From Abyssibacter profundi (GTDB taxonomy: Bacteria; Pseudomonadota; Gammaproteobacteria; Nevskiales; OUC007), in assembly GCF_003151135.1 (NCBI RefSeq), contig NZ_QEQK01000003.1, forward strand, positions 124,001 through 188,000: 64,000 bases of DNA, in the 5' to 3' direction. Shown piece after piece: positions 59,478 to 62,983 of this stretch. The stretch's first letter is position 1, and the number at the start of each line of letters is the position of its first letter. The position numbers and the translations under genes are program-made. The notes under the pieces were generated by a model. It searched no databases, had not been told where the DNA came from, and saw nothing but the letters and a program-made list of their open reading frames with translations.

Positions 59478-59954
59478 CTATTCGGTAGCACCCGCTTCCA
59501 GGTCGAGGATGTAGTCCCAGTGGTCCGGCTCGATCGGCATGACGGACAGGCGATTGCCGCGGCGGATTAGCGGTAGCCCCTCCAGGGATTCGGCGTGCTG
59601 CTTGATCTCTGCGAGCGGTATCTTCCGCGTCAGATGACGCACAAAACCCACGTCGACCAGAAACCAGCGGGGGTTATCCGGGTCGCTCTTGGGGTCGAAA
59701 TGCTTGTCGTCCGGATCAAAGGCCGTGTGGTCAGGGCGGGGGGCACTCGCGACCTGGGCAATGCCGACGATGCCCGGCACCTCGCAGTTGGAGTGATAGA
59801 AGAACACCTGATCGCCCACCTGCATGCTGTCTCGCATCATGTTGCGAGCCTGGTAGTTGCGCACGCCATCCCATGGCTCTTTCTGATCCGGGCGCCGCTC
59901 GAGGTCGTCAAAAGAGAACTCGTCCGGTTCGGATTTCATCAGCCAGTACTGCAT
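59478..59954 (-). CDS. EVE domain-containing protein
   Basis: This 158-residue protein is a stand-alone EVE domain of the PUA superfamily: MQYWLMKSEPDEFSFDDL, WDGVRNYQARNMMRDSMQVG, DQVFFYHSNCEVPGIVGIAQ and the C-terminal RGNRLSVMPIEPDHWDYIL. EVE domains bind modified bases in DNA or RNA in an aromatic cage and appear both in housekeeping proteins and in defence-related nucleases. This short stand-alone form is widespread and probably binds RNA or modified nucleic acid. The gene is convergent with ilvA and lies between two ends of the dispersed repeat. Confidence 0.92.
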   Translation of the reverse strand: MQYWLMKSEPDEFSFDDLERRPDQKEPWDGVRNYQARNMMRDSMQVGDQVFFYHSNCEVPGIVGIAQVASAPRPDHTAFDPDDKHFDPKSDPDNPRWFLVDVGFVRHLTRKIPLAEIKQHAESLEGLPLIRRGNRLSVMPIEPDHWDYILDLEAGATE

Positions 59955-59993: not shown

Positions 59994-60165
59994 CTAGGGA
60001 AACACTGATCGATTCGCACCACCAAGACGGAGCCGGTTTTCGCGCGAGCCCAGGCGGAGTGAGTGCCGCTTGGTCATTCCAAGTCAGCGAATGACACGAA
60101 CGCGTATGGGACGCGCTTCGCAACGCAGGATCGCGGGAAAACCGACCCGTTCCGTGTTTCCCTAG
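59994..60165 (+). repeat. Dispersed imperfect inverted repeat, copy C
   Basis: The 172-base element has a perfect 12-bp terminal inverted repeat, CTAGGGAAACAC at 59994-60005 and GTGTTTCCCTAG at 60154-60165. A second, inner inverted pair (60032-60050 with 60128-60146) matches at about 16 of 19 positions, so the whole can fold into a branched hairpin. The last bases contain the fau stop codon. It fills most of the 207-base gap between the EVE gene and fau and resembles a miniature mobile element; no target duplication was identified. Confidence 0.55.
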
Positions 60166-60767
60166 CGGCTGCGCCGGAACGGGGTGATGCCTTGTTCGGT
60201 GATCACGGCGTCCAGCGGGACATCGTGTGGTTCAACGGGCAGGCGGTCGACCGCCTGCGCCTCAAATGCCAGACCAATAAGCCGGGGGCGTGGCCAGTGG
60301 CTGCTCCGCAGGCGACTGCTGAAGCAGCGGTCGTAAAAGCCGCCGCCCAGCCCCATCCGGTTGCCCAGGCGATCAAAGCCCACCAGCGGCAGGATGACGA
60401 CATCAAGTAACTGCAGTGCGGTCAACCGCGGGCCATGGGGTTGGGTCATGCCAAGCCGGTGTGCCTGCATGCGTGCACCGGGCACGTAAGGCACGAAGTA
60501 CATGCGGCGGCCTACCACCCGGGGCAGGAACACCTGCTTGCCAAGCCCGTAGAGGGTGTCTAGCAACCGGTCGGTCGGGGCTTCCGACGGCAGGGACAGA
60601 TACGCAGCGACACGCGAGGCGCGGCGCAGCCAGACATGCTGACGCGCCAATCGTTCGCTGCTCTGGCGCAGCTGGTCGCGCTGTGTGTCGTCAACCGCGC
60701 GCCGTGCCTGCAGCAGCTGGCGTCGCAGGTCGCGACGCGCCTCAGAGATTGAAACTGGGGAAGGCAT
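60162..60767 (-). CDS. fau: 5-formyltetrahydrofolate cyclo-ligase
   Basis: A 201-residue enzyme that converts 5-formyl-THF to 5,10-methenyl-THF with ATP. The N-terminal RRDLRRQLLQARRAV, the YLSLPSEAPTD segment and the C-terminal block DVVILPLVGFDRLGNRMGLGGGFYDR are the family signatures. In gammaproteobacteria fau (ygfA) lies directly after 6S RNA and is cotranscribed with it; the same order holds here, and its ATG at 60767 falls within the 3' end of the 6S RNA. Its stop codon lies inside the right arm of the repeat at 59994-60165. Confidence 0.92.
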   Translation of the reverse strand: MPSPVSISEARRDLRRQLLQARRAVDDTQRDQLRQSSERLARQHVWLRRASRVAAYLSLPSEAPTDRLLDTLYGLGKQVFLPRVVGRRMYFVPYVPGARMQAHRLGMTQPHGPRLTALQLLDVVILPLVGFDRLGNRMGLGGGFYDRCFSSRLRSSHWPRPRLIGLAFEAQAVDRLPVEPHDVPLDAVITEQGITPFRRSR

Positions 60768-60948
60768 CTCCCGCCTGTGCCGTTGCGTGCCTTTGACCCT
60801 GAGACATGATCTCAGGTGGGGATTCGGATCGCCCGCTTAGGCTTTCCACCCGAAGTGGACGTGCTCACCACGGGCAACCAACCCTCCCCGGTGTGGTGCA
60901 TTGGCTCAGGAGGTAACCCGGCACACTATCGAACACCGCAGGAGATAC
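60763..60948 (-). ncRNA. ssrS: 6S RNA
   Basis: Between zapA and fau, the minus strand reads GTATCTCCTGCGGTGTTCG at the 5' side and GGCGGGAGATGCC at the 3' side, closing the terminal stem. Internal landmarks match 6S RNA: CCTGAGCCAATG, GGTGAGCACG and AAGCCT. The length of about 186 bases fits (183 in E. coli). 6S RNA mimics an open promoter and sequesters sigma-70 RNA polymerase in stationary phase. Ends are approximate. Confidence 0.92.
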
Positions 60949-61009
60949 CACGCACATTACAACGAATTTCGTGGATGGATGCCAGCGTGAGCAGCCGGTG
61001 GATTGCGAT

Positions 61010-61321
61010 CTAGCTGTTGCGCTCGGACAGGGCCTGATCGATGGAGAGTTCCATTTGCCGCAGCCGGCGCCGCGTGGAATCGTCCACGTCACCGCTCGGA
61101 CCCTGGTCACGATGGTCGAGGAAGTCTCGGGCGATATTGAGCGCCGCCATGATGGCGATGCGCTCGATGCCCATTGAGCGCCCGCGCTTGCGAATCGCGT
61201 TCATGCGGCCGTTGAGATAGTCAGCGCATTCCAGTAGCCGCTCCTGCTCTTCGGGCGGACAGGCGATCTGGTACTCGCGACCCAAGATCGTGACGGTAAT
61301 CGATCTGGCTTCATCCATCAT
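61010..61321 (-). CDS. zapA: Cell division protein ZapA
   Basis: This 103-residue protein has the ZapA core ITVTILGREYQIACPPEEQE, LLECADYLNGRMNAIR, IERIAIMAALNIARDFL and a C-terminal coiled coil. ZapA bundles FtsZ protofilaments and tethers ZapB. The start is one of two adjacent ATGs (61321 or 61318); the much longer frame to 61549 overlaps the TIGR02449 gene and is rejected. It lies 61 bases upstream of the 6S RNA gene, the standard gammaproteobacterial order. Confidence 0.93.
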   Translation of the reverse strand: MMDEARSITVTILGREYQIACPPEEQERLLECADYLNGRMNAIRKRGRSMGIERIAIMAALNIARDFLDHRDQGPSGDVDDSTRRRLRQMELSIDQALSERNS

Positions 61322-61347
61322 GCGCGCAACCTGGTTCGTGTACGAGG

Positions 61348-61539
61348 CTAGGCCGTCTCGACTTCCAGCGCACGGATGCGCTCGAGTATGGAGCCCAGTC
61401 GGCTTTTGAGCTCGGCATTGGACGCGCGCAGCTCGGACAGCTCGCGATCCAGGCTTCGATTCTGTTCGGCCAGACGGCGATAGTCCGCGAGCAATGCCTG
61501 CACGCGGGTTTCCAGCCCGTTGAGTTCCGAATCGTTCAT
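61348..61539 (-). CDS. TIGR02449 family coiled-coil protein (ZapB-like)
   Basis: A 63-residue protein made almost wholly of a heptad coiled coil (LETRVQALLADYRRLAEQNR, then LDRELSELRASNAELKSRLG). TIGR02449 proteins are small partners encoded just before zapA and are probably ZapB-like cell-division factors. It is 26 bases upstream of zapA on the same strand and is therefore likely to be cotranscribed with it. Confidence 0.9.
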   Translation of the reverse strand: MNDSELNGLETRVQALLADYRRLAEQNRSLDRELSELRASNAELKSRLGSILERIRALEVETA

Positions 61540-61585
61540 CTGCGCTCACCTCTTCGATTGAGGAGTATAGCGACCGCGCGCCGGG

Positions 61586-62983
61586 TTATCGCAACACGAT
61601 GAACGCGGAACGTCCGTCACGCTGGATTCTTAGGACAAGCTCGCGGGATCTGGGTGTTGCGGCTGCGCGCGCATCAGCGAGCGATCCGATGGGCGTTCGG
61701 CCAATCTGCGAAATGATATCGCCCGCCGCCAGTCCGGAGCGCGCGGCCAGCGAGCGGGCATCGACCTGCTCAACCACAATGCCCTGCGCCCGGCCCGCCT
61801 GCGGATGATGTTCGGTCATGTTGCTAAGCCAGGTGCCGGCCAACAGCGGATGAAGTTCGGCGCCATCCAGCTGCGTCCACTGCGGTTTGACCAGCGTCAC
61901 TTGGGCGGTGCGCCGCTGGCCATTGCGGAGATAGATCAGGGGCAGTCGTTCACCCGCACTGGCCAGGCCCAGCGCCCGGCGCAGGCTTTGGGTGTCACGC
62001 AGGCGCACGTCACCCAGTTGCTGGATGACATCGCCGGGTTCCAGGCCTGCGCGGTCTGCCGGGGAGCCATCGAGGATGCGTGTAACGAGCACGCCGTCTC
62101 GAGGGCGCAGGTCGAAGGCCTGGGCCAGCTCGGCGGTGAGGTCCTGACCCACGACGCCCAGCGAGGGCCGGATGACGCGACCGTCCGCGATAATGGCATC
62201 GGTGATCCGGCGCACCATGCTGGCCGGGATGGCAAAACCGATGCCGATGCTGCCGCCGCTGTTGGAGTAGATCATCGTGTTGATGCCGACCAGTTCTCCG
62301 CGCAGATTGACCAGTGCGCCCCCGGAATTGCCCGGGTTGATGGAGGCGTCGGTCTGGATGTAGTCCTCGTAGCCGCGCCCCAGGCCGTGGCGGCCCAGCG
62401 CGCTGACGATGCCCGAGGTCACGGTTTGGCGCAGGCCGAAGGGGTTGCCGATGGCCACGACAAAATCGCCAACGCGCAAATCATCGGTCCGCGGGAAGGG
62501 GATGGCGGTTAGTTGATCGGCTTCGATTTGCACGACGGCCAGATCGGTTTCCGGATCGACACCGATGAGTGTGGCCGGAAACTCGCGGTCGTCGCCGAGC
62601 CGAACGAGATACTCCGAACCGGATTCGACCACGTGATGATTGGTGACTACATAGCCCTGCTGTGCATCGACAATCACGCCCGAGCCGATTGACTGCGTCT
62701 CCCGGTACCGCGGTTGGCGTGGCGCGTTGAAGAAGTGCCGGAAGAACGGATCGTCGAGCAGCGGGTGCGCCTGTTCACGCACCCGCCCAGTCGCCACTAC
62801 ATTGACGACACCCGGTAGCACCTCCTCGAGCATCGGCGCCAGTGACGGGGTGCCATCGGCCAATAGTGGCAGTGGAACCCCCGCGCGAGCGCTGGCCGTT
62901 ACAAATGCTGCGGATGCCCATAACAAGCAGGCCATCGCCTGCCTCAACCCATTGAGGGCGTGCGGCCTAATCGATGCGGACAT
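61586..62983 (-). CDS. DegQ/HtrA-type periplasmic serine protease
   Basis: The 465-residue protease has a signal peptide (about 1-34), a trypsin-like domain with the triad His ([11 protein letters not shown]), Asp ([10 protein letters not shown]) and Ser ([11 protein letters not shown]), and two PDZ domains (from [20 protein letters not shown] and [20 protein letters not shown]). This is the DegP/DegQ layout: a periplasmic quality-control protease and chaperone. The second PDZ is short, so the protein fits DegQ better than DegP. It is coupled to the PEBP gene upstream by a 17-base overlap and converges on nothing downstream; the TIGR02449 gene follows after 46 bases. Confidence 0.93.

Follow-up and report, generated by a model that had tools for sequence, protein, structure and literature searches.

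Overlap of the fau start codon with the predicted closing helix of 6S RNA in Abyssibacter profundi and its relatives

In the stretch of the Abyssibacter profundi genome analysed here (64,000 nt; hereafter, the window), the start codon of fau, which encodes a predicted 5-formyltetrahydrofolate cyclo-ligase, lies inside the 3′ end of the 6S RNA gene (ssrS) on the same strand and is part of the predicted helix that closes 6S RNA (Table 1). Comparison with related genomes shows an overlap of the two genes, the absence of any other standard start codon before residue 40 of Fau, a closing helix that covaries, and a like overlap in most members of a sister family (f2). The reading that we favour, and regard as reasonably probable, is that the folding of 6S RNA acts as a cis lock on fau, such that each RNA molecule serves either as 6S RNA or as fau mRNA. 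The ssrS-fau operon itself is known, and the new element is the location of the fau start codon within 6S RNA; the arrangement is a variant of the known operon. Among the papers listed on 6S/ssrS-fau, as judged by titles and abstract openings, no fau start inside 6S RNA is described, and an earlier mention is possible.

Table 1. Features around the junction of ssrS and fau in the window.
Feature	Position	Strand	Basis
6S RNA gene (ssrS)	60764..60947	-	RF00013 full-length match, 71.3 bits, model 1-187
fau start ATG, within 6S 3′ end	60765..60767	-	RF00013 match and fau open reading frame
fau, 5-formyltetrahydrofolate cyclo-ligase, 201 aa	60162..60767	-	PF01812, TIGR02727
3′ arm of predicted 12-bp 6S closing helix (GCGGGAGAUGCC), contains AUG	60763..60774	-	Folds; tally of outer ten pairs in the order
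5′ arm of predicted closing helix (GGUAUCUCCUGC)	60938..60949	-	Folds; 5′ end 60949 inferred from helix
zapA, upstream of 6S	61010..61321	-	PF05164, 81.2 bits; start placed by eye inside open reading frame 61010-61549
zapB-like gene	61348..61539	-	Weak: TIGR02449 and Pfam ZapB both under cut-offs
EVE-domain protein gene, downstream of fau	59478..59954	-	PF01878, 201.6 bits

The 6S RNA of the window matches RF00013 over the whole model (positions 1-187 of 187), scoring 71.3 bits, above the gathering threshold of 46.4 (E = 1.4e-13). The fau product is assigned by profile match to the Fau/MTHFS family as a predicted enzyme (PF01812, 147.1 bits with a cut-off of 27, profile positions 2-186 of 186; TIGR02727, 142 bits with a cut-off of 84.9, profile positions 2-182 of 182), and the genome contains no other PF01812 match, so that fau is present as a single copy. 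The original prediction had placed the fau start codon inside the 3′ end of 6S RNA, and the RF00013 match (60947-60764) does contain the ATG (60767-60765), which begins at the fourth-last base of the match and is accordingly assigned the offset -4, all offsets being counted from the 6S model end. Between the upstream stop codon and this ATG, the fau frame, which is open from 73 nt before the 6S end, contains no ATG, GTG or TTG. The next in-frame standard start is a TTG at residue 40, which falls beyond R15 and R22, two residues that are invariant in 19 aligned relatives (window included); in G001 and G002, the next standard start is found at residue 59 and at residue 18 (TTG), respectively. 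We regard ATG 60767-60765 as the only plausible standard start of fau, and the overlap of ssrS and the fau start on one strand is confirmed at the level of sequence. All three genomes of the window's genus and the single genome of family f5 carry an in-frame ATG at the same place (-4), and 43 of the 54 readable f2 junctions retain another site within 6S RNA; both observations argue against chance as the origin of the overlap. By contrast, G003, from another genus of the window's family, carries this stem ATG out of frame, with a fau start at +27.

The position of the 6S 3′ end was carried over from Escherichia coli. The ssrS annotation of E. coli MG1655 ends in GGAGATTC, with C as the next base, and in Lelliottia (L116), in which the end sequence is the same as that of MG1655, the Rfam model end lies one base past the annotated ssrS end. 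Transferred to the window by homology, the 6S 3′ end would fall at 60765 or 60764, and the ATG would lie wholly before it. An end short of position 60768, which the original prediction had named as the observation that would speak against it, is therefore not what homology indicates.

The genes around the junction follow a known array. The order in the window (zapB-like gene, zapA, 6S, fau and EVE-domain gene), in which the synteny of 6S with zapA and fau is present, is identical to that of the zapB-zapA-ssrS-fau-EVE array (PMC7641849); the portion of that article available to us makes no mention of bases shared by ssrS and the fau coding sequence, as they are in the window. Further upstream of the zap genes, an open reading frame at 61586-62983 on the minus strand resembles, by eye, an HtrA/Deg-type serine protease with PDZ domains. 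Similarly, in the ssrS-fau (ygfA) operon of E. coli and other Gammaproteobacteria, zapA, 6S and fau lie on one strand as in the window, and E. coli 6S RNA is transcribed together with ygfA, according to an excerpt of PMC2848244. In E. coli MG1655, however, 75 nt separate ssrS from the annotated fau start, whereas a spacer of this kind is absent in the window, in which the ATG lies inside the 6S model end. In Coxiella, 6S RNA is located directly before ygfA, as in the window; the available part of the source assigns it to the 5′ UTR of ygfA, that is, to an untranslated region, and describes no start inside the RNA (PMC4064990), unlike the arrangement found here. In a Thiobacillus metagenome-assembled genome (L064), a cobalamin riboswitch is located at 124-328 on the minus strand, opposite to and approximately 0.7 kb before 6S-fau, in line with the cobalamin cluster that is noted beside the zapB-zapA-ssrS-fau-EVE array in the available portion of PMC7641849. 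A scan of both strands of 60100-61650 in the window gave no terminator-like site, including none between 6S and fau, which adjoin on one strand (0.7 expected in shuffled sequences), and a promoter scan of the same interval gave no site on either strand, a result that lends no support to an internal fau promoter but is weak either way because only 0.4 were expected in shuffled sequences.

The closing helix is predicted to consist of 12 contiguous pairs between GGUAUCUCCUGC and GCGGGAGAUGCC, in which the AUG is fully paired, and the 187-nt fold of the window 6S RNA has a z of -4.1. Of the 82 6S copies in the order, 77 were tallied after exclusion of five with shifted or truncated model ends, and each of the outer ten helix pairs is standard in 72 to 77 of these. 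Pairs 1-3, which hold the AUG in the window's genus, are standard in 72, 72 and 74 of the 77 copies and are made up of several pair types: the window has U-G, A-U and U-A, whereas most of f2 has U-A, G-C and U-A. Between the window's genus and most of f2, changes on both strands preserve the pairing and, in the window's genus, happen to spell ATG. The helix is supported by covariation in the order, and the view put forward in the original prediction that the ATG is part of the 6S closing stem gains support from the predicted 12-bp helix that holds the AUG and from the covariation of its outer three pairs.

According to the fold model, the unpaired probability of the AUG is 0.001 in the full leaders of G000, G001, G002 and G007, and it is 0.68-0.86 in the same four genomes after loss of the first 20 nt of 6S RNA together with two leader nucleotides. 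When 17 leader lengths of the window were folded, the 15 lengths of 0-175 nt freed the AUG at least partly, and those of 180 and 182 nt did not. Since the AUG is buried in the full leader and freed by 5′ removal, a full-length read-through RNA would be a poor fau message and a 5′-shortened RNA a working one. In f2, where the fold of L009 places the AUG at the inner end of the helix, pairing of the AUG is incomplete: its unpaired probability has a median of 0.31 and ranges from 0.005 to 0.93. When the 5′ strand is removed, the probability is higher in only 33 of 42 genomes, with a median of 0.48. The predicted Shine-Dalgarno pairing amounts to -5.2 kcal/mol in three genomes of the window's genus and in G007, to -3.3 to -5.1 kcal/mol in four f2 genomes, and to 0.3 to -3.0 kcal/mol in three f6 genomes. 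Such pairing appears moderate at both in-6S sites and does not discriminate between start sites.

The order was sampled with 85 genomes, in 81 of which 6S RNA was detected (58 of 61, and then 23 of 27, the latter including three earlier misses); junctions were readable in 78 genomes and, in addition, in G003. Family f2 accounts for 58 genomes, 54 of them with readable junctions. An ATG exactly at -23 is found in 43 of these 54, in frame with fau in all but one, and G009 has an in-frame ATG at -24, which brings the f2 total in frame to 43 of 54. In the 42 genomes with the in-frame -23 site, nine different spacer lengths (13 to 37 nt) separate the 6S end from the Fau core, all of them equal modulo 3, whereas the 15 readable junctions of family f6, in which starts are mostly downstream, occupy all three phases. 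By simple arithmetic, the chance that eight independent length changes would all keep the frame, with the phase left free, is approximately 1 in 6,500. The agreement of the nine spacer lengths modulo 3 argues that the f2 spacer is very probably coding and that translation starts inside 6S RNA.

The supply of alternative start codons in f2 depends on how far downstream a start is allowed to lie. Between the 6S end and the core, 36 of the 42 genomes contain no ATG, GTG or TTG. This count takes for granted that Fau starts before the aligned N-terminal core, which the annotated E. coli start, located after the core, makes less secure; for this reason, the count was repeated up to core+15, which corresponds by our reading to the annotated E. 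coli Fau start, and 30 of the 42 genomes were found without a downstream ATG, GTG or TTG. Up to core+45, this number is 22, and a downstream ATG up to core+60 is present in three. In the other two frames, from the -23 site to core+15, one contains a stop codon in 41 of 42 genomes and the other in only nine, so the openness of the fau frame alone is weak evidence.

The remaining f2 junctions are varied. A GTG occupies the position equivalent to the -23 site in G079 (by our reading) and an ATC occupies the -23 site in G075; an ATG lies at -29 in G082 and G083 (G082 also has later GTG and TTG codons) and at -44 in G053; G084 has a GTG at -27 or +60, G050 a TTG at 0, and G076 a GTG at 30; and G004 and G056 have an ATG at 96 and 99, respectively. 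In G065 (L186), the -23 ATG is out of frame, and fau starts are available at TTG+47, ATG+119 or later. That this ATG persists although fau starts elsewhere may be a remnant of the overlap, or it may be due to chance in the RNA sequence. Elsewhere in the order, candidate starts are a GTG at -8 in G010 and a TTG at -4 or +5 in G021, and in G005 (L014, family f3) the fau frame contains no ATG, GTG or TTG between a TTG at -44, inside 6S RNA, and the core. A search with the f2 pattern retrieved 31 of the 85 genomes of the order, all of them from f2.

The same pattern was absent from a class-wide sample of 369 genomes, none of which belonged to f2. In a class sample of 185 genomes, a hand tally among the matches listed gave at least 103 adjacent 6S-fau pairs; across these listed pairs, a median of 45 nt lies between the end of 6S and the Fau domain. 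Apart from the window, G006 and G008, the junctions of 60 of these pairs were read, most of them with short gaps, and 40 of the 103 were left out. In three of the 60, each from a different family outside the order, the interval between 6S and the core lacks a standard start: G195 (ATG at -4, GTG at -7), G214 (ATG at -10 or -28) and G233 (GTG at -11 or -8). As a side observation, G124 and G264 of family f46 contain at least five and at least three 6S matches per genome, respectively, and the copies among the matches listed are not beside fau.

A further 80 named loci were chosen by Fau similarity; 71 were scanned for 6S RNA, which was found in 57, and nine were left out of the scan (two with short flanks and seven not from Proteobacteria). 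An in-frame ATG, GTG or TTG is present between the 6S end and the Fau core in 55 of the 57, and so there is room for a start after 6S RNA; together with the E. coli spacer, this bears out the earlier statement that fau usually starts after the RNA. One of the two exceptions is a Granulosicoccaceae metagenome-assembled genome (L114) with a GTG at -11. In Chromatium okenii (L073), no standard start was found in the fau frame from the stop codon at -63 to the core at +24, and a non-standard or later start is possible; in L066, the candidate starts are a GTG at -7 or an ATG adjoining the core. The overlap is thus uncommon outside the order, and its scattered occurrence across families suggests that it arose more than once.

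Several other explanations of the junction have to be weighed. Fau might begin downstream of 6S RNA, at a non-standard codon or at TTG40, with the stem ATG being accidental. The GGGAGATGC stem is also found in G003 with its ATG out of frame, and the annotated E. coli Fau begins past the aligned N-terminal stretch, which implies that the first residues may be dispensable; nevertheless, we consider a downstream start improbable, given that the window has no ATG, GTG or TTG between the first codon and residue 40 and that the frame is kept from the in-6S ATG in 42 of the 43 f2 genomes with an ATG exactly at -23. Also quite improbable, and slightly more so, is a shorter 6S RNA in this lineage that stops ahead of the ATG, in which case the genes would abut without overlap. 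Such an RNA would be at variance with the covariation of outer pairs 1-3 across the order and with the annotated E. coli end, which maps just past the ATG, and the f2 site at -23 would require the RNA to lose its closing helix; in its favour, the Rfam end is a model end and not a mapped RNA end.

Plain compaction is a live rival, which we hold to be possible though not probable. The 6S-fau spacer would have been deleted and fau would have recruited whichever in-frame ATG lay inside 6S RNA, with no regulatory role, weak translation being enough for a low-demand enzyme. This explanation agrees with the wandering of the start among related lineages (-4, -8, -23, -29, +27 and +96), with the short gaps throughout the class (the median of 45 nt in the 103 adjacent pairs among the matches listed) and with the wide variation of AUG pairing within f2. 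It is less easily reconciled with the retention of the in-6S ATG in 43 of 54 readable f2 junctions while the spacer length changes; this persistence implies that the site is maintained, although regulation is not thereby shown. We see very little prospect for a switch in which pRNA synthesis on 6S RNA opens the closing helix and turns on fau translation at outgrowth. Such a switch would also require RNA polymerase to hold the fau mRNA itself. Masking of nt 42-61, a crude stand-in for pRNA, changed the f2 median from 0.305 to 0.297, with a higher value in 13 of 42 genomes, and left the AUG of the window at 0.001 before and after. Opening of the helix by pRNA was rejected on this model, which gave no effect on AUG accessibility.

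mRNA leaders can hide a start codon in a helix with an upstream complementary sequence. The cis lock that we favour would sequester the fau start codon likewise, except that the hiding helix in the window belongs to a conserved trans-acting RNA. The model that we favour is as follows. The fau start codon belongs to the 3′ arm of the predicted closing helix, and a read-through transcript from the 6S 5′ end would keep the AUG in the 12-bp helix and be poorly translated for fau. Fau would be made mainly from RNAs that lack approximately the first 12 nt of 6S RNA, or through rare opening of the helix; candidate sources of such 5′-short fau RNA are a transcription start site inside or after the 5′ arm and 5′ trimming by a nuclease. 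Molecules trimmed to mature 6S RNA would lose fau. Each RNA molecule would then be either 6S RNA or fau mRNA, with 6S folding locking fau translation in cis. In E. coli, an insertion that disrupts ssrS had no polar effect on ygfA, as stated in an excerpt of PMC2848244, which implies that fau need not depend on 6S RNA in that species. The partial pairing of the AUG in f2 and the out-of-frame ATG of G003, with its start at +27, count against the helix lock.

It had further been claimed that one transcript cannot give both products. This holds in that trimming to the homologous 6S 3′ end would remove the fau start: a molecule trimmed there keeps the AUG, and the downstream remainder is left without a fau start. 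As a point that distinguishes the overlap from the usual layout, the claim is not supported, because trimming may destroy the downstream RNA in the usual layout too. According to the title of a 2011 study by Chae et al., Rho-dependent termination and 3′ processing are reportedly linked to the 3′ ends of E. coli 6S RNA; should the 6S end arise by trimming, the usual layout would likewise not allow one molecule to serve as both 6S RNA and fau mRNA. What appears to set the window apart is the burial of the fau start codon in the predicted 6S fold. Folate enzyme synthesis may be tied to 6S maturation, as the original prediction had proposed, with plain compaction of the junction as a live rival.

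These observations have consequences for annotation: where gene-calling software disallows overlap with RNA genes, the start of Fau could be wrongly assigned in dozens of species. Tentatively, and with considerable reserve, 6S RNA in these lineages may have a dual use: it would act in trans on RNA polymerase, and its closing helix would serve as a lock in cis, such that stable full-length 6S RNA of the stationary phase keeps Fau low and 5′-trimmed or internally started RNA releases it. For the majority of one family, the first Fau residues (MTAQAGDT or close variants) would also be encoded by the final 23 nt of 6S RNA. Lineages in which 6S RNA and fau share bases make the link behind the conserved pairing of 6S and fau directly testable, because a change in the helix would alter both products predictably.
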